NCBI RefSeq assembly: GCF_002864685.1
Contig: NZ_NMQZ01000018.1
Coordinates: 1-64,000, forward strand
Length of the DNA: 64,000 nt
From: Alloalcanivorax mobilis
GTDB taxonomy: Bacteria; Pseudomonadota; Gammaproteobacteria; Pseudomonadales; Alcanivoracaceae
Direction: 5' to 3'
How positions within the stretch are numbered: the stretch's first letter is position 1; every line of letters begins with the position of its first letter. Shown piece after piece: positions 94 through 62,790 of the stretch. Below the pieces are notes generated by a model that was not told where the DNA came from, searched no databases, and saw nothing but the letters and a program-made list of their open reading frames with translations. The translations under genes were made by a program, and so were the position numbers.

Positions 94-114
94 TTTTAAC
101 TTTTAACTTTTAAC
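94..114. repeat. Heptamer array A (TTTTAAC x3, right-arm orientation)
   Basis: Three perfect tandem copies of TTTTAAC sit about 60 bp beyond the serB stop codon. The orientation matches the right arm of the paired element at 58323-58473, which uses the same unit. A left arm is not visible and may lie before the window. The rest of 1-176 shows no gene; the run of ten G at the very start may be a window or assembly edge effect. Confidence 0.7.
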
Positions 115-176
115 TGCCGTTCAGCCGACAGCGCGGCAGCCTTGTGTTCATCATGCCGCGTTGTGGTGGCGCCGCT

Positions 177-1409
177 TTATTTAAGCAATTCCGCCTGATC
201 CTTGTCGCGTACGCCGACCAGATAAAGAATGCCGTCCAGGCCCAGGGTGGAGATCGAGTGTTCGGCGTTTTCCTTGACCAGGGGTTTGGCGCGGAAAGCG
301 ATGCCGAGGCCGGCGGCGCCGAGCATGGGCAGGTCGTTGGCGCCGTCGCCGACGGCGATCACTTGCTCCAGATTGATGCCCTCGCGGTGCGCGATCTCGC
401 GCATCAATTCCGCTTTGCGCTCGCCGTTGACGATGGTGCCGGCGACCTCGCCGGTGACCTTGCCGTCGCGGATCTCCAGCTCGTTGGCGAACACATAATC
501 AATGCTCAGCAGCGATTGCAGCCAGTGGCCGAACCAGGTGAAGCCGCCGGAGAGAATGGCGGTGCGGTAGCCCAGGGCTTTCAGGGTGGTGATCAGGCGC
601 TCGGCGCCCTCGGTCAGTTCAATGCGCTGACGCACCCGTTCCAGAGCGCCTTCGTCGAGGCCCTTGAGCAGCGCCACGCGGGCGCGAAAGCTCTCGTTGA
701 AATCGAGCTCGCCGCGCATCGCCCGCTCGGTGATTTTGATTACCTCTTCGCCGACGCCGGCTTCGGTGGCCAGCTCGTCGATCACCTCCGAACGGATCAG
801 GGTGGAGTCCATATCGAACACCACCAGCCGCCGATTGCGGCGAAAGGCGCTGTCGCGCTGGAAGGCGATGTCCAGATTGCGTTCGTTGGCGATGCCCAGA
901 AACGCGGCGCGCATGGCGGCGGAATCCTTGGGCGCGCCGCGCACCGAGATTTCCACGCAGGCACGGGTGTCGGTATTGCCGTCGCTCTCGCCTTCCAGGT
1001 GCACGCGGCCGGAGAGGCGCGTGATGGAATCGATGTTAAGGTTGTTTTCGGCGACCACGGTGGTGACGTCGGAGAGTTGCTCCGCGGTGATCTTGCGTGA
1101 CAGCAGGGTAATAATGTGGCGGTCCTTGCCCTGGCCGGACACCCACTCTTCGTAACGGTCCTCGTCGATCGGCCGGAAGCGCACCGAAATGTTGCGTTTG
1201 TGGGCTTCGAACAGCAGGTCCTTGAGCAGCGACGAGGCCTGCGCCGCCGGCGGCACCTCCACCAGAATGCCCAGCGACAGCGTGTCGTGGATCACCGCCT
1301 GACCGATATCGAGAATGTTCAAATGGTAGCGGGCAAGAATCCGCGTAAAGGCCGCGGTCAGGCCGGGCCGGTCGCTACCGGATACCTGGATCAGAGTGAT
1401 CTCTCGCAC
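177..1409 (-). CDS. serB: Phosphoserine phosphatase SerB
   Basis: Hydrolyses phosphoserine to L-serine, the last step of serine biosynthesis, in the cytoplasm. The 410-residue protein has two ACT-like regulatory segments (about residues 1-180) and a HAD phosphatase domain. HAD motif I is VFDMDSTLI near residue 197, motif II lies in ILSGG, and the acidic motif is AVGDGANDLP. The reading frame stays open upstream to 1565, but the GTG at 1409 is preferred: it follows an AGGAG site and the protein then begins REITLIQVSGSDRPG, the usual start of the ACT domain. It is divergent from the Smp-like gene at 1564, which is also its neighbour in other gammaproteobacteria. Confidence 0.95.
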   Translation of the reverse strand: MREITLIQVSGSDRPGLTAAFTRILARYHLNILDIGQAVIHDTLSLGILVEVPPAAQASSLLKDLLFEAHKRNISVRFRPIDEDRYEEWVSGQGKDRHIITLLSRKITAEQLSDVTTVVAENNLNIDSITRLSGRVHLEGESDGNTDTRACVEISVRGAPKDSAAMRAAFLGIANERNLDIAFQRDSAFRRNRRLVVFDMDSTLIRSEVIDELATEAGVGEEVIKITERAMRGELDFNESFRARVALLKGLDEGALERVRQRIELTEGAERLITTLKALGYRTAILSGGFTWFGHWLQSLLSIDYVFANELEIRDGKVTGEVAGTIVNGERKAELMREIAHREGINLEQVIAVGDGANDLPMLGAAGLGIAFRAKPLVKENAEHSISTLGLDGILYLVGVRDKDQAELLK

Positions 1410-1563
1410 GGGTGGAGCTCCTGAAAGTCTGTTGCTGCGGCGGGCTGCGCGGGCCATAGAGTAGCAGAAAACCGGCAATCGATACTCCCGTGCGCAATCG
1501 CCGGTACGCCCGGCGCGGCGCGGGTTATACTGCCGCCACTTCGTGGAACAAGGATTTTCCGGC

Positions 1564-2805
1564 ATGTCTGTCTGGCAACAATGGCTGGGTTATTTTAGCG
1601 GCGAACGGTGTCGGCGGGAAAAGCGTCTGCTGATCGAGTTGGCGCTGATGTTGCTGATGGCGTTGGTGGTGGGTGTCTATTTTCTCGAGCACTTTTCCAG
1701 CCGTCTTGAGGCACAGCAGCGCGAGCAGTTGCAGGCGCTGGCCCATCAGACCGCGCTGCGCGCCACCGAATCGCTGGCCAGCGACGATCTCATCGGGTTG
1801 AACGTGATCGCCCGCGAGACTCAGGCGATGGCGCCGGTGGCCTCGGTGCGTTTTCTCAATACCGCCCGCGAGACGGTGACCGGCAGTGAGCCGGAGCCCG
1901 GGCTGGTGAGCGTGGAAGTGCCGGTGGCCCTGCCCGACGGCGAGCTGGCCGGCTCGGTGGTGCTGGCGGCGCCGGCGCCACTGAAGCCCCGCCAACATCT
2001 GGAAGCCGGGTTTTTGCTGGTGGTGGTCGGGCTGTTGCTGCTGCGGGTGGCCGCCGAGTTGATCCGGCGCCGTTTGCAACGCGCGCCGCCAGCGCCGGCG
2101 GTGCCGGCCGGCGAGGAGGCCGCGGCCCCGGCGTTCCGTCGTGTCGCGGAGGCGCCGGTGGCGCCGCCGGCACCGGTCACCGAATTGCGCCTCAGCGTGG
2201 TCAACTTCGACCATTTCGAGCAACGTTATACGCGCGGCGCGCTGCAGGCGCTGCTCGCCGATTACCGCGATCTGCTGAGCCAGGTGGCGACCTTGTACGG
2301 CGGTGAAGTGGTGGCCCAGGTGGGCGGCCGCGCGCGCGTTCGTTTCAGCGCCGAGCCGTTGTCGGCAAGCGCCTTTTCGGCGCTGTGTGCCGGGCTTCTG
2401 TTCCTCAGGGTGGCCCGTTTACAGGGCCCGAGGCGCAAGTCCAACCGGGCGCCGGCGCTGGAATTCAAAGCGTTGATCAGTAGCCAGTTCGACGACACCG
2501 AAAGCTGGGCCTTGTGCGTGGCCGGGGTGCCCGGCCGGCTGCACGTGCCGGACACCGAACTGACCCGCGCCGAGCTCGATGTGAAAGCGCTCTACCAGAG
2601 CGAGCGGGCCCTGGTGGTGGCGTCCGGCGAGCGCCAGGTGCGCCTGCAGCCAGTGGAGCAGCTGGCGCACCGCTACCAAACGCTGCTGCGCACTCAGGCG
2701 GAGCGGGTGATGGGCGCCGGCGACAGCGGTGAAGGGGAAACCGGCGAGGGCGACAACGGTGACGGCGACAACGGTGAGGAGGGAACGTCCTCGCCGAGCA
2801 GGTAG
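1564..2805 (+). CDS. AhpA/Smp (YtjB)-like inner-membrane protein
   Basis: A 413-residue protein with a membrane segment near residues 24-43, a periplasmic stretch, and a second membrane segment near residues 137-155 (LLVVVGLLLLRVAAEL). A Pro/Ala-rich linker and a soluble domain follow. Position next to serB and this two-helix layout fit the Smp/AhpA family, whose biochemical role is poorly defined. The ATG at 1564 follows AAGGA with nine bases of spacing and is preferred over GTG 1543. The last 30 or so residues are a low-complexity Gly/Asp/Glu/Asn tail (GDNGDGDNGEEG) that overlaps the convergent ATP-grasp gene. The family assignment is from context and architecture. Confidence 0.7.
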   Translation: MSVWQQWLGYFSGERCRREKRLLIELALMLLMALVVGVYFLEHFSSRLEAQQREQLQALAHQTALRATESLASDDLIGLNVIARETQAMAPVASVRFLNTARETVTGSEPEPGLVSVEVPVALPDGELAGSVVLAAPAPLKPRQHLEAGFLLVVVGLLLLRVAAELIRRRLQRAPPAPAVPAGEEAAAPAFRRVAEAPVAPPAPVTELRLSVVNFDHFEQRYTRGALQALLADYRDLLSQVATLYGGEVVAQVGGRARVRFSAEPLSASAFSALCAGLLFLRVARLQGPRRKSNRAPALEFKALISSQFDDTESWALCVAGVPGRLHVPDTELTRAELDVKALYQSERALVVASGERQVRLQPVEQLAHRYQTLLRTQAERVMGAGDSGEGETGEGDNGDGDNGEEGTSSPSR

Positions 2806-3545
2806 GCGCGCATGGCGTGGCCGATGCGCTGCGGCAGATCAGGAATGCCACGGTTGCCGAACAGCCGGTTGAATTCCAGTAGATACGGGTAGTTGTCCAC
2901 CCAGGCCACGTCGAAGCCGGCGTGGTCGATGCCCAGCCGCGCCGCCAGGGCGCGCACCATCTCCACCGCCGCCTCCGGCACCGGCAGATCGGTGCGCACG
3001 CGGGCGCCGCGCGCCACGTTATTGTGGAAGCTCTCGCCCTCGCGCCAATAGGCGGCGACGATTTCCCGGCCGACCACCACCACGCGCAGATCGCGCACGA
3101 TCGGCAGCAACTTCTGAATGTAGAGCACCTCGGTGTGGGCGGCGTAATCGAGCAACTGCTGGCGGTTCTCGATCAGAAACACGCCCTCGCCCTGGCTGGA
3201 GCGCACCCGCTTGGCCACATACGGGAAACGCCAGGTGTCCAGCAACTGGCTGATGCCCTGATGATTGGCGCCCAGAATCTCGGTGTCCGGCACGTGTTCC
3301 GGGCAGGCCAGGCGCAGGGCACGGGTCATCTCGACCTTGTCGTGTCCCAGGTGATAGCTGGCCAGGCTCGGAAAAATCGGGCGGCGCAGCACGTAGTGCA
3401 AGCTGTGCAGTTGCCAATAGGCGGGAAACAACAGCCAATCGGCGTCGGCCAATTCGTCGCGCTGAGTCGCCATGTGCTCGGGCTTGATGTAACGGACACC
3501 GGGCAAGCCGAGCGTGCGGAAGGGATCGAAGGTAACCAGTTTCAA
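2694..3545 (-). CDS. RimK-type ATP-grasp ligase-like protein
   Basis: A 283-residue protein with features of the ATP-grasp fold: a central segment YVAKRVRSSQGEGVFLI that resembles the ATP-binding lysine strand and glycine loop, VLYIQKLLP, and a C-terminal metal-binding type segment PYLLEFNRLFGNRGI. Members of this fold ligate amino acids or peptides to carboxylates with ATP; no substrate can be read here. The C-terminus is a Ser/Pro tail (SPLSPSPLSPSPVSP) encoded opposite the acidic tail of the convergent Smp-like gene, a 112-bp antisense overlap. The body of the fold ends before the tail, so the tail may be a recent extension. Confidence 0.7.
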   Translation of the reverse strand: MKLVTFDPFRTLGLPGVRYIKPEHMATQRDELADADWLLFPAYWQLHSLHYVLRRPIFPSLASYHLGHDKVEMTRALRLACPEHVPDTEILGANHQGISQLLDTWRFPYVAKRVRSSQGEGVFLIENRQQLLDYAAHTEVLYIQKLLPIVRDLRVVVVGREIVAAYWREGESFHNNVARGARVRTDLPVPEAAVEMVRALAARLGIDHAGFDVAWVDNYPYLLEFNRLFGNRGIPDLPQRIGHAMRAYLLGEDVPSSPLSPSPLSPSPVSPSPLSPAPITRSA

Positions 3546-3621
3546 GGCGTCAAAAACCAGCGGCGGGGATGGCGATTTATAGGACGATTCGTGGCGGCCG
3601 GCAAGAGGAATTATTGGGGGC

Positions 3622-3757
3622 GCCGGACGCCGGACGCGGGACGCTTTAACCCGCCGCTGAGATGTTTGGTTCTTTTCTGCAAGGGCATTGCAGGAAACAC
3701 GCTAAAGCTTTCAGAGCCGGGGTTGAGCGTCCGGCGTCTAGCGTCTAGCGTCCAGCG
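3622..3757. repeat. Heptamer inverted-array element B
   Basis: Left arm 3622-3645 holds three GCCGGAC-like units ending in ACGCT. Right arm 3727-3757 holds four GCGTCYR units, the complement of the left arm unit. The roughly 80-bp core contains GCTGAGATGTTT, nearly repeated in element K (GCTAAGATGTTT), and GCTTTCAG, also present in element I. It lies between the ATP-grasp gene and psd, with the right arm 9 bp from the psd stop codon. Confidence 0.8.
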
Positions 3758-3766
3758 CGATGCCTA

Positions 3767-4627
3767 TCACCCCACTGTCCCCATCTGCTGCCCCATGCGC
3801 ACCGGGCAGGTGGCGTTCAGAGCGGGATCGAAGCGGGCGGCGCCTTCGGCGAAGATCACGATGGCGGTGGAGCCGAGCATAAAGCGGCCCAGTTCGTCGC
3901 CTTTTTGCAAGGTGATGGGCTTCGGGTTGCGGTAGTCGGTGTGGGTGATGGCGTGGGGTTGCGGGGTTACCTGGCCGGCGAACACGGTCTCGATGCCGGC
4001 CACGATCATCGCCCCCACCAGTACCACCGCCATTGGCCCCACTTCGGTATCGAACACGCAGACCAGCCGTTCGTTACGGGCGAACAGGCGCGGCACGTTT
4101 TCGGCGGTGGTCTGGTTCACTGAAAACAGCGCGCCCGGCACGTAGCGGGTTTCGCGCAGGGTGCCGGTAAAGGGCATGTGCACCCGGTGGTAATCCTTCG
4201 GCGACAGATAGACGGTGGCGAAATGGCCGTTGGCGAACTCCGCGGCCAGTTGGCCGTCGCCGCCAAGCAGCTCGAACAGCGAATAGTAACGCCCCTTGGC
4301 CTGCAACAGATCGCCGCCGCGCAGGGCGCCGAGCTGGCTGACGGTGCCGTCCGCCGGGCAGGCGATGGCGTCCGCCGCCTCGGCGATGGGCCGCGCGCCG
4401 GGCTTGAGCGCCCGAGTAAAGAAAGCATTGAAGTGGTCAAAGCGATCCGGGTCCTCGATCTCCGCTTCGCTCAAATCGACCCCGAAGCGGCGGATAAAGG
4501 TATTAATAAAGGTGGTCTTGAGCCACGGAATCTCACTGCGCGCCACCCACCCCACCAAACGGGACAGCAGGTGCTGGGGAACCAGATATTGCACGGCGAT
4601 GAACAGTTTTTGTTTTAGGGTGGTCAA
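3767..4627 (-). CDS. psd: Phosphatidylserine decarboxylase proenzyme
   Basis: Decarboxylates phosphatidylserine to phosphatidylethanolamine at the inner membrane. The 286-residue proenzyme has the self-cleavage motif LGST at residues 251-254; cleavage before the serine creates the pyruvoyl group on the small alpha chain. Other family blocks are ACPADGTV and YHRVHMPFTG. Length is normal for the bacterial type I enzyme. It lies between two heptamer-array elements and on the same strand as rhdA. Confidence 0.95.
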   Translation of the reverse strand: MTTLKQKLFIAVQYLVPQHLLSRLVGWVARSEIPWLKTTFINTFIRRFGVDLSEAEIEDPDRFDHFNAFFTRALKPGARPIAEAADAIACPADGTVSQLGALRGGDLLQAKGRYYSLFELLGGDGQLAAEFANGHFATVYLSPKDYHRVHMPFTGTLRETRYVPGALFSVNQTTAENVPRLFARNERLVCVFDTEVGPMAVVLVGAMIVAGIETVFAGQVTPQPHAITHTDYRNPKPITLQKGDELGRFMLGSTAIVIFAEGAARFDPALNATCPVRMGQQMGTVG

Positions 4628-4649
4628 GGGAAAGCCTCGGGTGGGTGAA

Positions 4650-4730
4650 GCGTCTGACGTCGGATGTCTGACGTCGGACGCTAAAAAAAAGACGGGGTAA
4701 ATTTTTGACGTCAGACGTCAGACGTCAGAC
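4650..4730. repeat. Heptamer inverted-array element C
   Basis: Left arm 4650-4682 has four degenerate ACGTCKG units ending in ACGCT. Right arm 4707-4730 has three exact GACGTCA units plus GAC. A 24-bp AT-rich core separates them. The right arm touches the rhdA stop codon (4731-4733), and the left arm begins 22 bp upstream of the psd start. Confidence 0.8.
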
Positions 4731-5555: not shown

Positions 5556-5633
5556 GGCGGAATCATCGTCGCTGCGGGTCGGCCCATTGTAGTCGAGCAA
5601 GCCGGCAGGTAAAGGCGGGCCGCCGGCGTGGGG

Positions 5634-6706: not shown

Positions 6707-6909
6707 GATACAGGATGCAGGATACAGGGCAAAGGCGATACAGGATGCAGGATATAGCGCGAACCAGGCCGCCGGGACGGTCGGGCATCTTGCTCCGCGC
6801 ACCAGCGCCGTGGAAGCAGGAATGTTTTATTAACCTGCGTGCGCGGGCATGGCTGGGATCGCCACCCGGTCCTCCCCCGCGCTGAATCCTGTATCCTGCA
6901 TCCTGTATC
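6707..6909. repeat. Heptamer inverted-array element D
   Basis: The left side has two blocks of three GATRCAG-type units (6707-6727 and 6737-6757) and joins the core at CGCG. The right arm 6882-6909 has four units CTGAATC, CTGTATC, CTGCATC and CTGTATC, the complement of the left units. The right junction read on the opposite strand, GATTCAGCGCGGG, is identical to the junction of the single array L. The element fills most of the rsgA-orn divergent promoter region. Confidence 0.8.
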
Positions 6910-8193: not shown

Positions 8194-8340
8194 GCGCTTG
8201 CACGCAACACGCAGCACGCTTGCACGCTAAGTCAAAACCCGATTCTGCGGCGCCTGCGGGTGCGCAAAAACGGTTCTGCGAACCCGCAAGCGATGCAGGT
8301 CGCACTGTCGTAGCGTGCAAGCGTGCAAGCGTGCCAGCGT
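8194..8340. repeat. Inverted-array element E (8-bp right-arm unit)
   Basis: The left arm, about 8194-8228, is a degenerate 7-bp array (ACGCAAC, ACGCAGC, ACGCTTG) ending in ACGCT. The right arm 8312-8340 has an 8-bp period, AGCGTGCA x3. The core contains TCAAAACCCG, also found in element K. The left arm starts on the base after the cytochrome b stop codon, and the last base of the right arm is the first base of the cytochrome c' stop triplet, so the element exactly fills a convergent gap. Confidence 0.75.
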
Positions 8341-8777: not shown

Positions 8778-8806
8778 GGGCGGGCCTTTTTTTCCTGAGT
8801 GTTCGG

Positions 8807-8827
8807 TTTTCAGTTTTCAGTTTTCAG
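8807..8827. repeat. Heptamer array F (TTTTCAG x3)
   Basis: Three perfect tandem TTTTCAG units lie 30 bp upstream of the cytochrome c' start codon. No complementary arm is visible before queG. About 40 bp further on, AGTCATACACGG occurs twice as a direct repeat 22 bp apart (around 8867-8905). The 270-bp gap to queG holds this array, the direct repeat and array G. Confidence 0.7.
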
Positions 8828-8958
8828 TGCAGGCGGCGCCGGGCTTTCTTGTTGGCGCCGCTGGAATAGTCATACACGGGTTTTATGAAACAGTCATACA
8901 CGGTTTGTGGGAAATCCGGAAGTCGGAGTGCCCGAAGCCATGCCCGCTACGGAGCCGC

Positions 8959-9055
8959 GTAGGAGAGGCCAGACGCCAGACGCCAGACGCCAGACGCCAG
9001 ACGCCGGACGCCAGACGCCAAAATCAAACCCGTCGCTGGCTGGGCCTGCTCCTAC
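8959..9055. repeat. Heptamer array G bracketed by REP-like half sites
   Basis: Seven consecutive GCCAGAC or GCCGGAC units occupy 8968-9016. They are bracketed by GTAGGAGAGGCC (8959-8970) and GGCCTGCTCCTAC (9043-9055), which are inverted copies of a GTAGGAG-type REP half site. TCAAACCCGTCGCT follows the array. The right REP-like half site includes the queG stop codon. The structure looks like a REP hairpin with a heptamer array in it. Confidence 0.65.
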
Positions 9056-10110
9056 AACGGGAACGCCGGTTCCAGCCGCGCCAGTGCCCATTCCACGTGT
9101 TCGCGCACCAGCGCGGAAGGGTGGTCGCGGCGTTGCCGCAGGGCGGCCAGGGCACGCGCGCTGGCGGGGCCGTTGCCGAGCGCCACCGCCAGGTTGCGCA
9201 GCCAGCGCTCAAAGCCGGCGCGGCGGATCGCGGAGCCTTCGGTGCGCGCCAGGAAGGTGGCTTCGTCCCACAGAAACAGGCTCACCAGTTCCTGGTCGTC
9301 GAGGCCGTGGCGGGGGTGGAAGGCGTGCTCGCCGGTGTGCGAGGCGAATCGGTTCCAGGGGCACATCAGCTGGCAATCGTCGCAGCCAAACACGCGGTTG
9401 CCGATGCCCGGCCGTAACGGCTCGGGGATCGGCCCGGGGTGTTCGATGGTCAGGTAGGAGATGCAGCGGCGGGCGTCCAGTTGGTAGGGGGCGACGATGG
9501 CATCGGTGGGGCACACGGTCATGCACGCGGAGCATTTGCCACAGTGGTCTTCGCCGGGGGCGTCGATGGGCAGGGGCAGGTCGGTGTAGATCTCACCGAG
9601 AAAAAACCAGCTGCCGGCTTCGCGGTTAAGCAGCAGGGTGTGTTTGCCCTGCCAGCCCAGACCGGCCTTGGCGGCGAGGGGCTTTTCCATCACCGGGGCG
9701 CTGTCCACGAAGGCGCGCGCCAGCCCGCTCTGTTGCGCTTGTTCGCGAATCCAGCCGGCCAGCCGCGCCAGCCGCTTGCGAATCAGCTTGTGGTAATCGC
9801 GGCCCAGCGCGTAGCGCGACAGGTAGGCTTTTTCTTTTTGCCGCAGCACCTTCACCGGTTGGGTGTCCGGTGGCAGATAATCCATGCGGAACGAGAGCAC
9901 CCGCAGGGTGCCCGGCTCCAGTTGCGCCGGGCGTGACCGTTTGCCGTCATGGGCGGCCATCCAGTGCATCTCGCCCTGATAGCCCGCCGCCAGCCATTGT
10001 TGCAAACGTTGCTCGGCCTGGCTCAGATCGATGTCGGCCACGCCCATTTGCTGGAAACCCAGCGTTAGGGCCTGATCGGCGATGCGCTGTTTAAGGTCGG
10101 CAAGGTCCAT
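9052..10110 (-). CDS. queG: Epoxyqueuosine reductase QueG
   Basis: A cobalamin-dependent iron-sulfur enzyme that reduces epoxyqueuosine to queuosine in tRNA. The 352-residue protein has two [4Fe-4S] cysteine sets, CGKCSACMTVCP and CDDCQLMCP, and a HEAT-like C-terminal segment. The start at 10110 (MDLADLKQRIADQA) is chosen because the in-frame extension upstream is antisense to the EamA gene. queG and nnr are usual neighbours; here a 4-kb block separates them. Confidence 0.95.
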   Translation of the reverse strand: MDLADLKQRIADQALTLGFQQMGVADIDLSQAEQRLQQWLAAGYQGEMHWMAAHDGKRSRPAQLEPGTLRVLSFRMDYLPPDTQPVKVLRQKEKAYLSRYALGRDYHKLIRKRLARLAGWIREQAQQSGLARAFVDSAPVMEKPLAAKAGLGWQGKHTLLLNREAGSWFFLGEIYTDLPLPIDAPGEDHCGKCSACMTVCPTDAIVAPYQLDARRCISYLTIEHPGPIPEPLRPGIGNRVFGCDDCQLMCPWNRFASHTGEHAFHPRHGLDDQELVSLFLWDEATFLARTEGSAIRRAGFERWLRNLAVALGNGPASARALAALRQRRDHPSALVREHVEWALARLEPAFPL

Positions 10111-19501: not shown

Positions 19502-20539
19502 ATGTCTGAAGTCGGACGTCGGACGTCGGACGTCAACCCCGTCGCTCCTGACGTCCGACGTCCGACGTCCGACCCGGTTATTTTGCTTATGGGCCCAACG
19601 GCGGCGGGCAAGACCGAGTTGGCGATCCGCGCCGCCGAGACCTTGCCGATTTCGTTGATCAATGTGGATTCGGCGCTGGTGTACCGGGGCTTGAGCATTG
19701 GCGCGGCGCGGCCTTCCGACGCGGAGCTGGCCCGGGCGCCGCATCGTCTGCTCGGTTTCCGCGACCCCGCCGAGCCCTATTCCGCCGCTGACTTCCGCCA
19801 CGACGCCCTGCGCGAAATCCAGGCCATTCACGCGGATGGCCGGCTGCCGCTGCTGGTGGGCGGCACCATGCTGTATTTCAAGGCTTTGGTGGAAGGGCTG
19901 GCACCGTTGCCGGAGGCCGACCCGGTGGTGCGCGGGGAAATCGCCGCGCTGGCTGCCGCCGAGGGCTGGCCAGCGGTGCACCGCGAATTGGCGAAGGTAG
20001 ACCCGGCCAGTGCCGCGCGTCTCAAGCCCACCGACAAGCAACGTCTGCAACGGGCGCTGGAAGTGCATCGCCTCACCGGGCGGGCGCTGTCTGAATTCCA
20101 TGATCAGCACGACACTGGCGCGCGCGCGGCCGAAAACGGCTTTTATCGTTTTCCCGGCTTGCCCCATCCAGTGCTCAGCCTGGTGGTGTCACCGCCCCGC
20201 GCGGAACTGCACCGGCGCATCGAAGCGCGCTTTCACGCCATGCTTGAACAGGGGCTGGTGGAAGAGGTGCGGGCGCTGCGCGCGCGCGCCGATCTGCACG
20301 CCGATCTGCCAGCCATGAAAGCGGTGGGGTACCGGCAGGTCTGGCGCTATCTGGAGGGCGAATGGGATTACGCCAGCATGGTGGAAAGGGGTATCATCGC
20401 CACGCGTCAACTGGCCAAACGGCAAATCACCTGGTTGCGCAAATGGCCCGGCCCCGAGACCTTCGACAGCACCTTGCCGGAGCAGCGCGAAGCCTGTCTC
20501 AAGCGGCTTGCAGGGGTTTGTAAAACCGTGTTTAGTTAG
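19502..20539 (+). CDS. miaA: tRNA dimethylallyltransferase MiaA
   Basis: Adds dimethylallyl to A37 of UNN-decoding tRNAs. The 345-residue reading has the P-loop [10 protein letters not shown] near residues 31-40, then [11 protein letters not shown], the substrate block [15 protein letters not shown] and the terminal [15 protein letters not shown]. The oddity is the N-terminus: about residues 4-24 (VGRRTSDV...DVRRPTSD) are the translation of heptamer element H. The ATG at 19502 follows the mutL stop directly. A later start (TTG 19583 or ATG 19589) would remove the repeat but also most of the first beta strand VILLMGPT, so the upstream start is more likely in use. Confidence 0.93.
19511..19573. 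repeat. Heptamer inverted-array element H inside miaA
   Basis: Left arm 19511-19534 is GTCGGAC x3 plus GTC; right arm 19550-19573 is GACGTCC x3 plus GAC. The arms are a perfect 24-bp inverted repeat around a 15-nt core. The element begins nine bases after the miaA ATG at 19502 and stays in frame for its whole length. The transcript would form a very strong hairpin at the start of the gene. Confidence 0.85.
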
Positions 20540-35203: not shown

Positions 35204-36018
35204 ACGCAGGCAAACCTTCAGGGCGCTCCGGTGCCCCACCGCGCGGCGCTAAGCGCGCCAAGGGCAGCCTCGCCAAACCCTTGATGTATTCGGGCATCCA
35301 CGCGGTGGAATCGCTGCTGCGCCATCGCCCGGAAGGGGTGTTGGAGCTGTTTGTGCTGGACGCCCGCGCCAAGCGCGGCGACGCCCGGCTGGAGACGCTG
35401 ATCGTGGCGGCCCGGGATCAGGGCATCGCGGTGCAGTTCGCCCACCGGGACGCCCTGGAAAAGCTGGCCGGCCCGCAGAACCAGGGCGTGGTGGCCCGCG
35501 CCCGGGCCCGTGAGCCGGGCTCCGACGCCGCTCTGGAAGCACTGCTTGAGCGCCGCCCGGAACCGCTGCTGCTGATTCTCGAAGGCGTCACCGACCCGCA
35601 CAACCTGGGAGCCTGCCTGCGCAGCGCCGACGCCGCCGGCGTGGACGCGGTGATCGTGCCGCGCCACCACGCCGCCGGGCTGACCCCGGTGGCCTGCCGC
35701 AGCGCCGCCGGCGCCGCCGAATCCCTGCCGTATTTCGAGGTCGGCAATCTGGCCCAGTTGATCGAACGGCTGCAACAGCGCGGCATCACCGTGGCCGGCA
35801 CCGCCCTGGCGCCGGGCAGCGTGTCGCTGTTCGACTACACGCCCCCCGCCGCCCTGGCCCTGGTGATGGGCGCCGAAGGCGAAGGCCTGCGCCGCCTCAC
35901 CCTGGAACGCTGCGACACGCTGCTTTCGATTCCGATGGCCGGGGATGTGCAGAGTTTGAATGTGTCGGTGGCGACCGGGGTGGTGCTTTTTCATGTGCGC
36001 AGCGCGCTAGCGCGCTAG
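35200..36018 (+). CDS. rlmB: 23S rRNA 2'-O-ribose methyltransferase RlmB
   Basis: Methylates Gm2251 of 23S rRNA. The 272-residue SPOUT methyltransferase has the knot motifs GVTDPHNLGACLRSADAAG, MGAEGEGL and IPMAGDVQSLNVSVATGV. A basic N-terminal extension of about 25 residues precedes the substrate-binding domain. It is coupled to rnr. Element I begins on the base after the stop codon. Confidence 0.96.
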   Translation: MNAGKPSGRSGAPPRGAKRAKGSLAKPLMYSGIHAVESLLRHRPEGVLELFVLDARAKRGDARLETLIVAARDQGIAVQFAHRDALEKLAGPQNQGVVARARAREPGSDAALEALLERRPEPLLLILEGVTDPHNLGACLRSADAAGVDAVIVPRHHAAGLTPVACRSAAGAAESLPYFEVGNLAQLIERLQQRGITVAGTALAPGSVSLFDYTPPAALALVMGAEGEGLRRLTLERCDTLLSIPMAGDVQSLNVSVATGVVLFHVRSALAR

Positions 36019-36154
36019 ACGCCGGACGCCGGACGCCGGACGCTCAACCCGGAACAGAGCCTCTTCGTGTGTTTCCTGCGATGCTTTCAGTAAACACGGC
36101 TCACCGCTCCGATTGGGGGTTAAGCGTCCAGCGTCTGGCGTCCAGCGTCCAGCG
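36019..36154. repeat. Heptamer inverted-array element I
   Basis: The left arm (to 36044) holds three exact GCCGGAC units and ends in ACGCT. The right arm 36124-36154 holds four GCGTCCA or GCGTCTG units. The core contains CAACCCGG, GTGTTTCCTGCG and GCTTTCAG; the last is shared with element B. It directly follows the rlmB stop and abuts the 24-bp palindrome that carries the rpsF promoter. Confidence 0.8.
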
Positions 36155-36155
36155 A

Positions 36156-36205
36156 GCGGCCCCAGGCTCAAGGGCCGCGGGCGCGGCCCTTGAGCCTGGG
36201 GCCGC
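36156..36205. repeat. 24-bp perfect palindrome before rpsF
   Basis: 36156-36179 and 36182-36205 are exact inverted copies (each beginning or ending in GCGGCCCCAGG or its complement) around a 2-nt centre. The duplex would extrude as a near-continuous cruciform. The right arm includes the -35 element of the rpsF promoter. Confidence 0.85.
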
Positions 36206-36218
36206 TCTAAGCTAGAAT
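36190..36218 (+). promoter_or_regulatory. Sigma-70 promoter of the rpsF operon
   Basis: TTGAGC (36190-36195) and TAGAAT (36213-36218) are separated by 17 bp, about 85 bp before rpsF. The -35 lies in the right arm of the palindrome, so cruciform or hairpin formation could mask it. Confidence 0.65.
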
Positions 36219-39284: not shown

Positions 39285-40352
39285 ATGCGCGGTACCGTGC
39301 TGGAATTGCGCCCCGCCGCGCTCGCCCACAACGCCCGCCGCGCCCGCGCCCTGGCCGATGGCGCCCGGGTGCTGGCGATGGTCAAGGCGAACGGTTACGG
39401 CCACGGCCTGGGGCTGGCGGCGCGGGCCATGGCCAATCAGGTCGATGGCCTGGGCGTGGCGCTGCTGGAGGAAGCCCAGGCTCTGCGTCACCTGGGGTTG
39501 GCCCACCCGTTGCTGGTGGCGGAGGGCTTCTTCGACGCCGACGAGCTGCGCCTGGCGGCGCGCCTGCACGCCGAAGTGGTGGTGCACTCGCCCTGGCAGG
39601 TGGACCTGCTGGCGGCCAACCCGGCGCCCTTGAACGTCTGGCTGAAGGTCAACACCGGCATGAACCGGCTCGGCATGGCGCCGGATCTGGCCCGCGCCCA
39701 GGCGGCGCGCCTGCGCGGCGTGCCCGGCGTTAAGTTGCTGGGGGTGATGAACCACTTTTCCTGCGCCGATCTGCACGACGACCCGCACAGCGACGCGCAG
39801 CTGGCCATGGCTGGCGCCCTGGCCCGGGAGCTGGGGGTGGCGCTCACCGCCGCCAACTCCGCCGCCCTGATCCGCTACCCCGAGGCCCGCGCCGACCGGG
39901 TGCGCCCGGGCATCATGCTCTATGGCAGTTCGCCGTTCGCCTGGCGCAGCGCCGCCGAGCTGGACCTGCGCGTCACGGAACGCTTCCGCGCCCGCCTGAT
40001 CGCCATCAACCCGATCCAGGCCGGCGACAGCGTCGGCTACGGCGCCACCTGGCGCGCCGACGGCCCGGGCCGCATCGGCGTGGTGGCGGTGGGCTACGGC
40101 GACGGCTACCCGCGCCACGCGCCCAGTGGCACACCGCTGGCGGTCAATGGCCAGCGCACCCGGCTGGTGGGGCGGGTCTCCATGGACATGCTCACCGTTG
40201 ACCTGAACGGCATCGACGCCCGCGTTGGCGACGAAGTGGAATTGTGGGGCGACGTGATACCGGTGGACGAAGTGGCGGCGGCGTGCGGCACGATCAGTTA
40301 TGAGTTGTTTTGTCAGGTCACCGCGCGGCCGGTGAGAGTCATCGCGGAATAG
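39285..40352 (+). CDS. alr: Alanine racemase
   Basis: A PLP enzyme interconverting L- and D-alanine for peptidoglycan. The 355-residue protein has the PLP lysine in VKANGYGHG (K34), the catalytic tyrosine in SVGYGATW and the RPGIMLYG block. The ATG at 39285 follows GGAG and begins at MRGTVLELRPAAL; a GTG ten codons upstream is less likely. Next to dnaB, as in Pseudomonas and enterobacteria. The last base of its stop codon begins element J. Confidence 0.95.
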   Translation: MRGTVLELRPAALAHNARRARALADGARVLAMVKANGYGHGLGLAARAMANQVDGLGVALLEEAQALRHLGLAHPLLVAEGFFDADELRLAARLHAEVVVHSPWQVDLLAANPAPLNVWLKVNTGMNRLGMAPDLARAQAARLRGVPGVKLLGVMNHFSCADLHDDPHSDAQLAMAGALARELGVALTAANSAALIRYPEARADRVRPGIMLYGSSPFAWRSAAELDLRVTERFRARLIAINPIQAGDSVGYGATWRADGPGRIGVVAVGYGDGYPRHAPSGTPLAVNGQRTRLVGRVSMDMLTVDLNGIDARVGDEVELWGDVIPVDEVAAACGTISYELFCQVTARPVRVIAE

Positions 40353-40420
40353 CTGCAAGCCGCAAGCTTCAAGCGACAAGCAGGTCGGGCTTGCGGCTTG
40401 AAGCTTGCGACTTGTAGCTT
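40352..40420. repeat. Heptamer inverted-array element J
   Basis: The left arm 40352-40383 has four GCYNCAA units and the right arm 40390-40420 has four CTTGNNG units, complementary to the left. Only six bases separate the arms, so this is nearly a pure hairpin. It occupies most of the alr-radA gap. Confidence 0.8.
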
Positions 40421-41821: not shown

Positions 41822-41822
41822 C

Positions 41823-41971
41823 GCTGGACGCTGGACGCCGGACGCCGGACGCTAAAATCAAAACCCGGGTTTGCCAGCGTTGCGGATTTGCACTGACCGA
41901 TTGCGGAGCCGCAAACAGGCTCGGCTAAGATGTTTAAAAAGCGTCAAGCGTCAAGCGTCCGGCGTCTAGCG
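41823..41971. repeat. Heptamer inverted-array element K
   Basis: The left arm 41823-41853 has four GCTGGAC or GCCGGAC units ending in ACGCT. The right arm 41941-41971 has four GCGTCAA, GCGTCCG or GCGTCTA units. The core starts with AAAATCAAAACCCG (compare elements E and G) and contains GCTAAGATGTTT (compare element B). It fills the radA-ktrA gap. Confidence 0.8.
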
Positions 41972-45394: not shown

Positions 45395-45404
45395 CGCGGT
45401 TCGG

Positions 45405-45425
45405 GATACAGGATTCAGGATTCAG
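45405..45425. repeat. Single heptamer array L
   Basis: GATACAG, GATTCAG, GATTCAG followed by CGCGGG lies ten bases after the second ktrB stop. The junction GATTCAGCGCGGG is identical to that of element D on its other strand. No opposing arm is visible before the convergent gene end at 45516, so it looks like a half element. Confidence 0.7.
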
Positions 45426-52225: not shown

Positions 52226-52339
52226 CGATACCTCGCGAAGGGGTGGGCGCGAAAGGGCAATCAGGCCTTCAGAATAGGACGATTGTGGTATCAGGTCCAA
52301 GGTTGGTGGGGGCGACCAAAGTCTTGGGGGAGGATTGAG

Positions 52340-52360
52340 TTTTCAGTGTTCAGTTTTCAG
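52340..52360. repeat. Single heptamer array M
   Basis: TTTTCAG, TGTTCAG, TTTTCAG, overlapping the stop codon of the zinc-finger gene (52357-52359). Same unit as array F. No opposing arm is visible upstream to fdhD. Confidence 0.65.
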
Positions 52361-53347: not shown

Positions 53348-55015
<1,668 letters not shown>

Positions 55016-58312: not shown

Positions 58313-58322
58313 GAAGACGCGG

Positions 58323-58473
58323 TTAAAAGTTGAAAGTTAAAAGTTGAAGGCGCGCGCGGGCCTCGTCATGATATTTGACGCTGCTCGCCGCGCCTTTTCC
58401 TTAAGCGCGGCCTGAAGCGCCCAAAAGAGAGTGACCTCGCCCGCGTTTCAACTTTTAACTTTTCACTTTCAAC
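58323..58473. repeat. Heptamer inverted-array element N
   Basis: The left arm 58323-58350 has four units TTAAAAG, TTGAAAG, TTAAAAG, TTGAAGG followed by CGCGCG. The right arm 58446-58473 has TTTCAAC, TTTTAAC, TTTTCAC, TTTCAAC preceded by CCCGCG. The core also has a CGCGGGC/GCCCGCG inner pair. It starts 10 bp after the glyA stop and ends 25 bp before nrdR. The AT-rich arms contrast with the GC-rich arms of other elements. Confidence 0.8.
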
Positions 58474-58498
58474 GTGTTTGTTCTGGCCGGAGGCCGCC

Positions 58499-58984
58499 AT
58501 GTATTGTCCGTTCTGCGGTGCCCAAGACACCAAAGTCATCGATTCCCGGCTGGTCGCGGATGGCGGCCAGGTGCGGCGGCGGCGTGAGTGTTTGAGCTGC
58601 AACGAGCGGTTCACGACTTTCGAGACCGCCGAGCTGGTGATGCCCCGGTTGATCAAATCCGATGGCACCCGCGAGCCGTTCGATGAGAACAAATTGCGCG
58701 CCGGCATGATGCGCGCGCTGGAAAAGCGGCCGGTCAGCCTGGAAGATCTGGAAGCGGCGATCAGCCGTATTTGTCACCAATTGCGCGCCACCGGCGAGCG
58801 GGAAGTGCCGGCTCGGGAACTGGGCGAGCGGGTCATGGAAGCCCTGCAGCAGCTCGACGATGTGGCCTATGTGCGCTTCGCCTCGGTGTATCGCAGCTTT
58901 CAGGACATCTCCGAATTCGCCGCCGAAGTGGACCGCCTGCGCAAGGCGGGCGGAAAGAAAGGCGGCGGCAAGGGCGACGCATGA
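58499..58984 (+). CDS. nrdR: Transcriptional repressor NrdR
   Basis: Represses ribonucleotide reductase genes through NrdR boxes, sensing dATP/ATP. The 161-residue protein has the zinc ribbon CPFC...CLSC and an ATP-cone domain ([21 protein letters not shown]). The ATG at 58499 follows GGAGG; the upstream in-frame codons overlap the repeat region and are rejected. A Lys/Gly-rich tail overlaps ribD by four bases. Confidence 0.96.
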
Positions 58985-60093
58985 GTGGCGCCTTCGATCA
59001 GCACTGCATGATTCGCGCCGTGCAACTGGCCCGGCGCGGCCTGTACACCACCGATCCCAATCCCCGTGTTGGCTGCGTGATCGCCAAGCACGGCCAGATC
59101 ATCGCCGAGGGCTTCCATGCCCGCGCCGGTGAACCCCACGCCGAACGCCACGCGCTGGCCGCCGCCGGCGAGCAGGCGCGCGGCGCCACCGCCTACGTGA
59201 CCCTGGAGCCCTGCTCGCACACCGGCCGCACCGGCCCCTGCGCCGCCGCGTTGATTCAGGCTGGGGTGGCGCGAGTGGTCGCCGCCATGGAAGACCCCAA
59301 CCCACAAGTGGCCGGCAACGGCTTTCGCGCATTGCGCGAAGCGGGTATCGCCGTGGAGATCGGCTTGCAGGAAAACGACGCCCGCGCGTTGAACCCGGGC
59401 TTTATCCGCCGCATGCGCGGCGAGCGGCCCTACATTCGCATCAAGGCCGCCGCCAGCCTGGACGGGCGCACCGCCATGGCCAGTGGCGAATCGCAATGGA
59501 TCACCGGCCCCGCCGCCCGCGAAGACGTGCAGCGTCTGCGCGCGCGCAGCTCGGCAATCATCACTGGCATTGGCACGGTGCTGGCGGACCGCCCCTCCTA
59601 CACGGTGCGCCCAGCACAATGGACGCTCGCCGATTACGGCAGCGACACGGTGCGCCAGCCGCTGCGCGTGATTCTGGATCGGCGTTTGCGCACCCCGGCG
59701 GATGCGCCGGTGGTCACCGCCGAGGGGCGGTGTCTGATCGTCGGTGGCCAGGCACACCCGGGGCGCGAGAGCGCCCTGCAAGCCGCCGGTGCCGAGGTGA
59801 TGCACCGGCCGGCTTCCGAGTCGGGGGGCGCCCTTCAGGCCCTGCTCGCCGAGCTGGCGCGCCGTGAGTGCAACGAAATTCTGGTGGAATGCGGCGCCAC
59901 CCTGGCCGGTGCTTTCGTGCGCGAAGGCCTGTTCGATGAGTTGATTGTCTATCTGGCGCCGACCCTGCTCGGCAGCGACGCCCGTGGCCTGTTCGCCCTG
60001 CCGTTCGCGCGCATGGTGGAGCGGGTCCCGCTGCAATGGCGCGACGTTCGGCGGGTCGGCGACGATCTGGGTGTGACGCTGATCCCCGCCTGA
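58981..60093 (+). CDS. ribD: Bifunctional riboflavin deaminase/reductase RibD
   Basis: Performs deamination then side-chain reduction in riboflavin synthesis. The 370-residue protein has the zinc deaminase motifs HAERHAL and [11 protein letters not shown] (about residues 50-90) and a C-terminal NADPH-dependent reductase domain ([24 protein letters not shown]). Coupled to nrdR by the ATGA overlap. Confidence 0.96.
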
Positions 60094-60116
60094 TATTCCG
60101 AATGCCCTTTCCGCTT

Positions 60117-61376
60117 TTAAGCAATGGAGAGCCGATTGCGGCCCTCGGACTTGGCCCGATAGAGCGCTTCGTCGGCACGCTTTAAGGTGTCGCGCCAATC
60201 CACATCGGTGAGCTCGGCAAAGCCCATGCTGGCGCCAATGTCGATGCCGGTGACACCATCGAGCTCGATGGTCGCGAAGGCGGCCAGCAGCCGCGCCACG
60301 ATGGGCGGCGCGGAATTCGAGTGGGCCTCGGCCAGGTACACCACGAATTCATCGCCGCCCCAGCGGCAGGCGATGTCGCCCTCGCGCATGGTGCTGCGAA
60401 GGCGCTCCGCCACCAGACGAATCAGCCGGTCGCCATGGCCGTGGCCGAAGCGGTCGTTGACCAGCTTGAAGTGATCCAGATCGATAAACAGCAAGCCGCC
60501 ACCGGCACCGCCCAGGTGATCCAGCCGGTTCTCCAGATAAGTCCGATTGAACAGCCCGGAAAGCGGATCGCGGTTGGCTTCGTCGGTGAGTCGTTGAAGC
60601 TGATGGCTGTGCTGGGTGCGTTCGCTGAGCGTGCGTGAGTAATGAATCGCCATGGCCGCGAACGCGCCCAGGTGGAAACAGGCGCAACCCAGGGTCAGGG
60701 CGCTGAACGGCAGCAATTCCACACGCAGCTCGCGCAGCGTGTCGTGGACGCCGGCGAGAAAGAAAATCGCGAAGCCAAACACGGTCAATCGCCACACCAG
60801 CACGCCGCCGGCGCGGCGCGCCCGGTGCAGGAGACGCCACGAAGCCATCGCGAACAGCAGCAGGCAAACGCCGAAAAACGGCGCCGCGCCAGTGCCGTAA
60901 TCCGCGAACACGCCATTGCCGCTCACCATGAAGCGATCGCTGGCGATAATCAGCCAGGGGTGGCGCAGCCACAGCAGGGATGAAAACAGCAGCCCCGTGG
61001 CATACAGAGCCAGCAGCGGGCCGGCCGGCGTGTCGCGCTGGCGCAGCACTCTCTGCAAGCAGATGAAGGCCACCAGCGCCATCACCACCGCCGCCAAAGA
61101 CAGCCGATAAGGCAGCATCACCTGGTCCGGCTGGCCCTGGCGCAGATGAATGCCCACGGCGATGTCGCCGGTAACGTAGGCGGTGGCGAACAGATTGGCG
61201 AGGGTGAAATGCAACGCCACCGGCGCCTCCCGGTCGCGGTGCCGGTACAGCGCCAGCGTAAACACCGCCAACAGCAGCAGCGCCAGGGTGGCGCCGGTGG
61301 CCATGATCTTCACCCACAGCGTCCAGGTGTCCTCGCCCCCCGCGATCAAGCCGGTGGCCACAATTTCATCAGGCAT
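60117..61376 (-). CDS. Membrane-bound diguanylate cyclase
   Basis: A 419-residue protein that makes c-di-GMP. About seven hydrophobic segments occupy residues 20-245 and form an uncharacterised membrane sensor. The GGDEF domain follows (DPLSGLFNRTYLENRLDHL, FIDLDHFKLVNDRFGHGHGDRL, WGGDEF). REGD five residues before GGDEF is an inhibitory I-site, so product feedback is expected. It is convergent with ribD. Confidence 0.93.
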   Translation of the reverse strand: MPDEIVATGLIAGGEDTWTLWVKIMATGATLALLLLAVFTLALYRHRDREAPVALHFTLANLFATAYVTGDIAVGIHLRQGQPDQVMLPYRLSLAAVVMALVAFICLQRVLRQRDTPAGPLLALYATGLLFSSLLWLRHPWLIIASDRFMVSGNGVFADYGTGAAPFFGVCLLLFAMASWRLLHRARRAGGVLVWRLTVFGFAIFFLAGVHDTLRELRVELLPFSALTLGCACFHLGAFAAMAIHYSRTLSERTQHSHQLQRLTDEANRDPLSGLFNRTYLENRLDHLGGAGGGLLFIDLDHFKLVNDRFGHGHGDRLIRLVAERLRSTMREGDIACRWGGDEFVVYLAEAHSNSAPPIVARLLAAFATIELDGVTGIDIGASMGFAELTDVDWRDTLKRADEALYRAKSEGRNRLSIA

Positions 61377-61514
61377 ATTGCCCCATCGATAACGAATCGC
61401 TCCCCTCGGCGAAGAGTAGCAAAAAAGCGCCAGAGCGCCGCTGTGTTATCCGCGCGTCGGGCTGGGCAACCGCGCCTGGGAATGCCTGTTCATGGTGGTT
61501 AAGAGTGGAGGGTA

Positions 61515-61700
61515 ATGTATCGGATCATTGTATCAGGGCGGAATCGGCGGCCTTGGATGGTGGCCTGTAAGGTGGCGAAAAAGCGGTGAAAACCCGGAAA
61601 TAGAGCCGTTCAGAGTGATTTCTGGTCAAGGCGTGATCGGCGCTTTCAGAAATGACACGAAAATAGTAATTTGACATGAAATTATGTATCGTATAAAAAT
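61515..61700 (+). promoter_or_regulatory. paa operon promoter region
   Basis: The 390-bp gap 61377-61766 has no gene. TTGACA at 61672-61677 is followed by an AT-rich tract with TATAAA or TAAAAA at 15-17 bp, a likely sigma-70 promoter 70 bp before paaA. ATGTATCG occurs twice, at 61515-61522 and at 61684-61691 overlapping the -10 region; these could be sites for the pathway regulator (inference). Confidence 0.55.
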
Positions 61701-61766
61701 AAACACATTGGCGGATCACCGCCACCCAGTTGGCAGGGCGGGCGATGCCCGGCAGGGAGAGAAACC

Positions 61767-62753
61767 ATGTACGCACAACAGGTGGACACCGGCAGCAAGG
61801 GCCTGAAAAGCCTGGATGAAATGAGCCCGGAAGAGCGGCACTTTCAAGAGAAGGTGAACGCGGAAACCAAGATCGAGCCCAAGAACTGGATGCCCGACGG
61901 CTACCGCAAGACGCTGATTCGCCAGATATCCCAGCACGCCCACTCGGAAATCGTCGGTATGCTGCCCGAAGGCAACTGGCTGACCCGCGCCCCCAGCCTC
62001 AAGCGCAAGCTGCAACTGATGGCCAAGATCCAGGACGAAGCCGGCCACGGCCTGTACCTGTACAGCGCCATGGAAACCCTGGGCGCCGACCGCGACGACG
62101 AGATCGATAAGCTGCACCGGGGCGAGGTGAAGTTCTCCTCCATCTTCACTTATCCGACCCTCACCTGGGCGGACATGGGCGCCATCGGCTGGCTCGTCGA
62201 CGGCGCCGCCATCGTCAACCAGGTGCCGCTGCAGCGTTGCTCCTACGGCCCCTATGCGCGGGCCATGATTCGCGTGTGCAAGGAAGAGAGCTTCCACCAG
62301 CGTCAGGGCTACGAAATCCTGCTGACCATGATGCGCGAAGGCACCGACGAGCAGAAAGCCATGGTGCAGGACGCCATCAACCGCTTCTGGTGGCCGTCGC
62401 TGATGATGTTCGGCCCCTCCGACGCGGACTCGCCCAACTCCGCGCAATCCATGGCATGGAAAATCAAACGCCACGGCAACGACGACCTGCGCCAGCGCTT
62501 CCTCGACCAGACCGTGCCGCAACTGGAATTCCTCGGCTGCACCGCCCCGGACCCGGACCTGAAATGGAATGAGGAAACCGGCCACTACGACTTCGGTGAA
62601 ATCCAATGGCAGGAATTCTTCGACGTGCTCAAGGGCCACAGCCCTTGCGGCGTGGAGCGGATTCAGCAGCGCAAGAACGCCATCGACGAAGGCCAGTGGG
62701 TGCGTGACGCCGCCGTGGCCTACGCCGACAAGCAGAAAGCGAACGCCGCCTGA
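61767..62753 (+). CDS. paaA: Phenylacetyl-CoA 1,2-epoxidase subunit PaaA
   Basis: The catalytic diiron subunit that epoxidises phenylacetyl-CoA. The 328-residue protein has the carboxylate-bridged diiron ligands in [24 protein letters not shown] and [20 protein letters not shown] site precedes the ATG at 61767. It starts the paaABCD operon. Confidence 0.96.
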
Positions 62754-62762
62754 GGCGGCGCT

Positions 62763-62790
62763 GATGCAGGATTCAGGATACAGGATGAAG
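62763..62790. repeat. Single heptamer array O between paaA and paaB
   Basis: GATGCAG, GATTCAG, GATACAG, GATGAAG followed by GCGCGG lies nine bases after the paaA stop. Same unit family as elements D and L. The 96-bp paaA-paaB gap is unusually wide for this operon. No opposing arm is visible. Confidence 0.7.

Follow-up and report, generated by a model that had tools for sequence, protein, structure and literature searches.

The first 64,000 nucleotides of contig NZ_NMQZ01000018.1 of Alloalcanivorax mobilis (hereafter the window; 64 kb, 64.8% G+C, from a genome of 4.1 Mb) contain a dispersed family of elements built from tandem seven-base units (heptamers). Several unit classes occur, and the arms of an element are inverted arrays, matched in class, that lie beside stop codons. 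At other loci, inverted heptamer arrays enclose a small S23-type (PF05635/TIGR02436) gene. We think it probable that the window palindromes and the S23 loci belong to a single family of selfish elements, as its gene-less and gene-bearing forms respectively, and that the intervening sequences of ribosomal RNA (rRNA) are members too. The data suggest that the heptamer palindromes and the puzzle of S23 proteins and rRNA intervening sequences concern one kind of element.

Results

Heptamer arrays in the window and the genome

The closest named relatives of the window genome, judged by RadA, are Alloalcanivorax and Alcanivorax records with amino-acid identities of up to 94%. A first-pass annotation, made from the window alone, had counted 15 array sites and taken ten of them to be inverted pairs. 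We also count 15 tandem-heptamer sites, but nine are inverted pairs and six are single arrays. They are listed by window position, with the z score for pairs that were folded as RNA.

94..115: single class B array (TTTTAAC); array scan.
3618..3757: class A pair (GACGCYG) with an 82-bp core that holds a hairpin, 9 bp from a predicted stop codon; z -8.8.
4652..4730: class F pair (GACGTCN) with a short core; z -8.2.
6707..6909: class E pair (GATNCAG) with a long core, between divergent predicted genes; z -6.6.
8214..8340: class G-like pair with 8-bp steps (AGCGTGCA); array scan.
8799..8828: single class D array (TTTTCAG); array scan.
8964..9020: single class A array of ~8 units, near a GTAG-type palindrome half; array scan.
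19504..19573: class F pair with perfect 25-bp arms, 2 bp past a predicted stop codon and ahead of miaA; z -8.0.
36018..36154: class A pair behind rlmB, the first base of the element being the last base of the stop codon; z -6.9.
40351..40420: class C pair (CAAGCNN) between alr and radA, a gap that in relatives is empty or holds other classes; z -7.3.
41822..41971: class A pair directly behind the radA stop codon; z -4.6 (folded 41822-41966).
45404..45425: single class E array, 9 bp past the stop codon of a TrkH-type gene; array scan, gene prediction.
52335..52360: single class D array at the stop end of a short predicted gene; array scan, gene prediction.
58322..58473: class B pair (GTTRAAA) in the glyA-nrdR gap; z -7.1.
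62763..62786: single class E array, 9 bp past the paaA stop codon; array scan, gene prediction.

The genome was sampled as 837.5 kb (the window plus 40 stretches of the same genome). At a score of at least 14 this sample held 120 arrays of period 7, whereas the other periods tested (2-30, multiples of 7 excluded) gave 0-10 each. Order-2 Markov sequence gave no arrays at any period tested. One unit pattern had 348 + 313 genome matches (overlapping, with at most one mismatch) and its reversed control 0 + 0. Thus, the scan for period-7 arrays proposed in the annotation finds them to be real and specific to that period. A lower score threshold lists 162 arrays in the sample. Just 4/162 fit none of seven main unit classes: A, GACGCYG; B, GTTRAAA; C, AAGCNNC; D, CTGAAMA; E, GATNCAG; F, GACGTCN; and G, CACGCNN. 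Units do therefore differ between loci, as the annotation had said.

Two other readings were rejected. At the gathering threshold the sole Rfam match in the window was one tRNA, and the elements were not assigned to a known RNA family. A broad heptamer class defined by sequence was also discarded, because the class C pattern occurred in just 5/274 genomes across the taxonomic class.

Position relative to genes

Genes were predicted with a simple codon model, and positions were counted for 101 elements (61 array pairs and 40 singles), two of which lie inside genes. The median distance from element to stop codon is 8.5 bp, with 73/120 within 15 bp. For start codons the median is 74 bp, with 5/66 within 15 bp. 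In the window, 11/15 sites are at most 20 bp from a predicted stop codon. Hence, the stop-codon preference described in the annotation is confirmed. Among the 93 elements with two neighbours, 54 are in tandem, 33 in convergent and 6 in divergent gaps; the corresponding counts for all 410 gaps of at least 60 bp are 252, 58 and 100. Convergent gaps are thus enriched (33/93 compared with 58/410) and divergent gaps depleted (6/93 compared with 100/410).

Arms, cores and predicted hairpins

Neighbouring arrays (<260 bp apart) were of the same class on opposite strands in 51/63 pairs. With permuted partners (10,000 permutations), same-class pairs had a mean of 16.3 and a maximum of 28. Class differed in the remaining 12/63 pairs, and 38/162 arrays had no partner. 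The claim that the arms of one locus always match is therefore correct at the level of class, but "always" is too strong.

Copy by copy, no such match was found in the window genome. At variable positions, class A arms of the same locus agreed in 79/150 cases (0.527, compared with 0.526 for arms of different loci). Alignment scores for the same locus and for different loci were 20.4 and 20.8 for class A (n=26), 18.6 and 19.1 for class B (n=12), 13.4 and 14.9 for class C (n=5), and 18.2 and 20.5 for class D (n=5); usable pairs numbered one for class E, two for class G and none for class F. Since arms within a class are no more alike than those of other loci, homogenisation is unsupported in the window genome for classes A, B, C and D. 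Conversely, arms did match within loci in Alcanivorax jadensis (G330), where 20 RTKRAYA-armed loci were picked among the matches listed and 19 yielded two arms. Same-locus agreement across these 19 elements was 0.937, compared with 0.817 when permuted, a value reached in 0/5,000 permutations. The match was also present inside two subclasses (9 loci, P 0.036; 10 loci, P 0.0008). A further 24 class B pairs, pooled from several genomes among the matches listed, gave a weak excess (0.53 compared with 0.42, P 0.03). The annotation's conclusion that arms must be co-generated or homogenised thus finds support in A. jadensis and none in the window genome.

Class A cores measure 76-95 bp in 25/27 cases. 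By eye, most resemble TAAACCC...GGGTTTA at their ends and contain an inner hairpin, of which there are two types. A second core-end type, starting CGCG, is frequent in other classes; one core-end type pairs with several arm classes, and at a few loci one core is flanked by arms of different classes (by eye). A reading based on class A inverted ends alone was dropped as too narrow, since the two core-end types (CGCG and AAAACCC) recur across arm classes. Folding covered 8/9 window pairs, with pair 8214-8340 left out, and predicted long hairpins in all eight (z -4.6 to -8.8). The exact hairpin GTGTTTCCTG...CAGGAAACAC was rare, at 7 places. The RTKRAYA cores of A. jadensis (L228-L246) are near-constant in length (99-107 bp in 13/19) and frequently have a central hairpin, GAGGCCGCG..., with spacer sequence that varies by locus.

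An S23-type gene lies between the arms

One of the 19 RTKRAYA loci of A. jadensis, L241, has arms 408 bp apart that enclose an S23-type reading frame. PF05635 was found in 21/57 relatives and in 0/14 control genomes. The window genome has two PF05635 genes, C18 with class A arms and C64 with class C arms; as an example of its S23 genes, L271 matches PF05635 with an E value of 1.5e-31. No PF05635/TIGR02436 open reading frame was found in the window elements themselves. The annotation had proposed a search for a linked gene that tracks the elements, such as a nuclease, polymerase or reverse transcriptase. Such a gene exists, but it is of the S23/PF05635 type; a nuclease or reverse transcriptase is not the linked gene, and the window genome had 0 matches to PF00078 (RVT_1).

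Arrays of period 7 were counted within 190 bp of S23 genes at a score of at least 9, or at the stricter score of 11. For loci drawn from the genome searches the gene was taken at 1501-1806, and sides are left and right rather than upstream and downstream. Among 30 loci of relatives, score 9 gave 21 with an array on the left and 24 with one on the right; 19 had arrays on both sides and 26 on at least one. Control windows of the same loci, which are mostly coding, had an array in 7/293. At score 11 these counts were 16, 15, 9 and 22, and the controls 5/293. A phylum-wide sample had PF05635 in 58/398 genomes. From it we took 29 new loci, which are the best-scoring matches and lean to a few families; at score 9 an array lay on at least one side in 23/29 and on both sides in 13/29 (controls 5/278), and at score 11 in 21/29 and 9/29. 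Each of these counts is one too low, because the contig of L303 starts too late for the assumed gene position: its gene, at 1263-1553, was misplaced, and arrays at 1155-1191 and 1583-1647 flank it. Many units in this sample, such as GTAGGCA, AGTAGTG and GAGTGAG, are unlike those of the window.

Nine plasmid loci, picked for spread from 21 records, come from Nostoc, Stanieria, Pseudanabaena, Geminocystis, Picosynechococcus, Calothrix, Riemerella, Azospirillum and Gemmatirosa, and so span Cyanobacteria, Bacteroidota, Alphaproteobacteria and Gemmatimonadota. Score 9 gave at least one array in 7/9 and arrays on both sides in 6/9 (controls 0/17); score 11 gave 5/9 and 4/9. An ungapped inverted repeat (score 14-28, counted without a control) surrounds the S23 gene in 9/9. 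Other periods occurred beside S23 genes at 0-2 loci per set, except for period 8 on plasmids (4/9). Ordinary genes of 250-520 bp had arrays on both sides in 4/117 cases in the window genome and 0/56 in the A. jadensis group, and on at least one side in 22/117 and 12/56. At two cyanobacterial plasmid loci, L309 and L313, the S23 gene stands between CRISPR-associated genes (cas6/cas4 and cas10/cmr3, respectively).

By eye, all seven window classes flank an S23 gene somewhere in the family, class D on one side only. The loci are as follows.

Class A: L249.
Class B: L257 and L260.
Class C: L258, L259 and L271.
Class D: L253.
Class E: L263.
Class F: L248 and L250.
Class G: L251, L252, L254 and L255.

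Gene-less elements and gene-bearing relatives thus have inverted ends in common, the relation of a miniature inverted-repeat transposable element to a transposon with inverted ends.

Sequence searches with the S23 proteins found two solved relatives, 2gsc (XCC0516 of Xanthomonas campestris) and 2rld, with five chains each. The X. campestris protein is a ring-shaped pentamer of four-helix bundles (PMC4990558; this and the other papers cited below are used from excerpts, unless the full text is named).

Protein and unit vary together

The two arms of one S23 element have consensus units that differ at 0.74 positions, compared with 3.06 when permuted (n=42 two-armed loci). Distance between S23 proteins correlates with distance between units (r=0.18, P=0.0004; 41 representatives of <75% identity, from 58 loci with a unit), and also among relatives only (r=0.39, P=0.0008; 16 among L241-L277). 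In a tree of S23 proteins, close proteins mostly bear like units. Proteins from the nrdR locus form one clade (100/100); those from the other two loci are not single clades.

Arrays were also counted across genomes. Nine of the 17 PF05635-negative family members were sampled and had 0 arrays in 367,328 bases. In S23-bearing genomes we counted 162 arrays in 837,500 bases (window genome), 82 in 400,000 (G332), 10 in 160,000 (G330), 17 in 160,000 (G337) and 7 in 62,718 (G334). One of these nine, G034, is of the same genus as G332 and G330 and had 0 arrays in 100,000 bases, where 20 and 6 would be expected at the rates of those two genomes.

The same gap in relatives

In the alr-radA gap the window has class C, L072 and L073 have class E, L087 has a B-like pair and L089 an A-like element. 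The gap measures just 9 bp in L074-L076, and holds a GTAG-type palindrome in L071, L077 and L091. In the glyA-nrdR gap the window has its gene-less class B element (58322-58473). Eleven relatives (G330, G337, G334, G332, L087, L265, L266, L267, L275, L276 and L277) have an S23 gene between K or M arms in this gap, and outer relatives such as L102, L098 and L103 have a few bases only. Hence, of the comparison between empty and filled orthologous gaps that the annotation proposed, both states were found, but not an empty site exact to the base.

For three closely related Alcanivorax genomes, whose proteins have a median identity of 95-98%, gaps were compared one by one. G330 or G337 has an array in 15 of them; five of these 15 align over at least 90% of their length, four over at most 25%, and six are intermediate. 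Inspection by eye shows that some of the swaps are total, with a GTAG palindrome pair facing a class B element in one case and an AGTTGCA array facing a class A pair in another. Two gaps have a core that points in opposite directions in different species, with identities of 0.92 as reverse complement and 0.70 as it stands in one, and 0.84 and 0.72 in the other. Array length varies between orthologues.

GTAG-type palindromes (TGTAGGAGC...) lie beside or replace heptamer elements in the same gaps (window 8950-9060, L071, L077 and L091). Three Y1 transposase genes (G000:C51, C44 and C14; L151-L153) are possible movers of these palindromes.

Intervening sequences of 23S rRNA

Two S23 loci, L264 and L311, lie inside 23S rRNA genes, with the S23 gene between AGAGGAC-type repeats. 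This arrangement is the classical intervening sequence. In Coxiella burnetii the 23S rRNA intervening sequence has tandem heptamers (GACAGAT) upstream of its S23 reading frame, in a copy number that varies between strains; it is excised by RNase III, and its mobility was proposed earlier (PMC4990558). An S23 reading frame with tandem heptamers is thus common to Coxiella and to the gene-bearing elements described here. Unlike the window elements, the Coxiella sequence is inside rRNA, and the excerpt of that paper does not link it to intergenic heptamer palindromes or to a general heptamer rule. The window elements are not filed as rRNA intervening sequences, because they are intergenic and the window has no rRNA match.

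Comparison with other repeats

Intergenic heptamer arrays near gene 3' ends, of GGGAATC in Xanthomonas and GGGGA(T/C)T in Nostoc, have been reported as repeats of unknown function (PMC4692102). Two Xanthomonas genomes have 70 and 75 convergent inverted pairs, whose length varies between species (PMC4692102). The window-genome elements are likewise intergenic heptamer arrays in convergent pairs. However, the G-rich quadruplex unit GGGAATC is absent among the main window-genome units (classes A-G). The Xanthomonas study treats one unit type, read as a G-quadruplex, compared with at least seven classes here, and names no core element or linked gene in its excerpt (PMC4692102). The words S23, XCC0516 and four-helix are absent from its main text.

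The TAACTGA repeats of Beggiatoaceae are also intergenic heptamer arrays, and occur in Cyanobacteria and Bacteroidetes too. They differ in being direct repeats, mostly just before start codons, with one inverted case (PMC4679880). S23, 23S and helix bundle are words absent from the text of that paper. Repetitive extragenic palindromes (REP), their mosaic elements (BIME) and the associated RAYT transposase offer another likeness: they too are palindromic, intergenic, behind genes, high in copy and often in opposite-facing pairs. They are, however, tagged palindromes of 20-40 bp for which the RAYT transposase is proposed as agent, and the excerpt does not mention heptamer arrays (PMC3733652).

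The annotation recognised no named family with these properties. That is correct only in part, as inverted heptamer pairs are in print for Xanthomonas (PMC4692102) and S23-linked heptamers for Coxiella (PMC4990558). Among open-licence papers, heptamer repeats and S23 intervening sequences are treated as separate subjects, with the Coxiella note in addition, and we found none that joins the two.

Discussion

A probable selfish element with and without its gene

Descriptions of S23 proteins, of rRNA intervening sequences and of heptamer repeats have so far left each of the three unexplained. A shared architecture makes them testable together. In the reading that we favour, the gene-bearing form would consist of an inverted heptamer array, a small S23-type gene for a four-helix bundle, and a second inverted array. 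S23 lineages go with their own heptamers, from which we infer that the S23 oligomer binds the arms. Copies and gene-less derivatives would spread as units. Landing sites would be behind stop codons, between convergent genes and in 23S rRNA helices, places where a transcribed hairpin should do little harm, presumably because transcripts can be cut there. The arms would be inherited as element ends, and array length would change by slippage. Recombination between the two arms may at times flip the core and even out the arms, and polymerase or nuclease activity would come from host enzymes.

Cyanobacterial short tandemly repeated repetitive sequences (STRR) are short tandem heptamer repeats. A wider proposal, possible but to our minds somewhat less probable than its opposite, is that of a widespread selfish element that itself encodes neither a nuclease nor a polymerase. 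Its S23 oligomer would recognise the inverted arms by a heptamer code specific to the lineage, and the remaining steps would fall to host enzymes. The rRNA intervening sequences, the Xanthomonas heptamer repeats and the cyanobacterial short tandem heptamers would then be what it has left behind, and the over-representation of seven-base repeats in bacterial genomes would follow from its spread. If S23 proteins do move or write elements in this manner, they would represent a new mode of DNA spread. The shared architecture predicts that S23 binds its own heptamer, and that heptamer-rich genomes hold or once held S23 genes. It also predicts that the XCC0516 gene lies between inverted heptamer repeats, Xanthomonas being a genus with described inverted pairs (PMC4692102).

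Several observations weigh against linking the palindromes to the S23 gene. The control windows were mostly coding, and score 11 lowers the both-sided counts to 9/30, 9/29 and 4/9. No score-9 array was found at L252, L254, L266, L268, L290, L291, L297, L298, L304, L313 and L315, although degenerate repeats are visible by eye at several of the loci lacking one. The strongest arrays at L296 and L309 are on the same strand. Classes B, D, E, F and G of the window genome are now without a matching S23 gene. Among genomes, G012, a tenth sampled genome without a PF05635 match, has 9 arrays in 200,000 bases, and G008, with two PF05635 genes, has 1 in 200,000. Descent confounds the tracking test, because eight of the nine gene-less genomes belong to other genera. 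Neither a target duplication nor a base-exact empty site was found; empty gaps could not be aligned base by base, and identity between the window genome and other members of its genus is 73-82% (best place, one test stretch). Finally, we know of no activity for the S23 family.

Alternative explanations

Slippage of the polymerase during replication, at hairpins in intergenic gaps, might grow period-7 repeats. Selection would then preserve long hairpins because they end transcripts or are cut by RNase III, and the S23 gene would be a passenger. Array lengths that vary between orthologues, the strong predicted hairpins (z -4.6 to -8.8 in the 8/9 window pairs folded), the enrichment of convergent gaps (33/93 compared with 58/410) and the depletion of divergent ones (6/93 compared with 100/410) are all in line with this. 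We nevertheless consider it unlikely, as it leaves unexplained the S23 genes between heptamer arrays in several phyla, the correlation of protein with unit, and the absence of arrays from the PF05635-negative relatives sampled.

It seems very unlikely that the palindromes are of the REP/BIME type and owe their movement to Y1 (RAYT) transposases. The window genome does have three Y1_Tnp genes, and GTAG-type palindromes share gaps in relatives, one replacing a relative's heptamer element. Conversely, heptamer arms differ from tagged 20-40 bp palindromes (PMC3733652): by eye, the elements lack a GTAG or CGTC tag beside such a palindrome, their arms are heptamer arrays, and the GCGTC within class A units recurs as a repeat rather than as a single tag. 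Furthermore, it is S23, not a Y1 transposase, that sits between heptamer arms at the loci read.

A host regulator of mRNA 3' ends could instead bind the arrays as tandem sites, and the S23 genes would be its autoregulated copies. Position at stop codons and the protein-unit correlation would both fit. Even so, we give this idea only a faint chance, because elements in the same gap differ between genomes of 95-98% median protein identity, unlike a conserved regulon.

A reverse transcriptase that writes the repeats with the aid of an Avd-like S23 protein, as in diversity-generating retroelements, is hardly likely at all and was rejected: homology of Avd to PF05635 has been proposed (PMC10053308) and one S23 protein weakly matches Avd models (E 8e-5, below cut-offs), but Avd works with a reverse transcriptase and the window genome has no RVT_1 match, the neighbours of S23 loci not having been searched systematically.

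Additional observations

The G008 genome (L178-L187) has 428 class A pattern matches genome-wide, and its one array in the 200 kb sampled is of another class; given these two numbers, the matches may be clustered. In the window, a two-copy 24-bp direct repeat, AGTCATACACGGGTT..., lies at 8868-8914, in the same gap as class D and class A arrays. In the gap between rlmB and rpsF, a perfect 26-bp inverted repeat (36154-36207) immediately follows the class A element.

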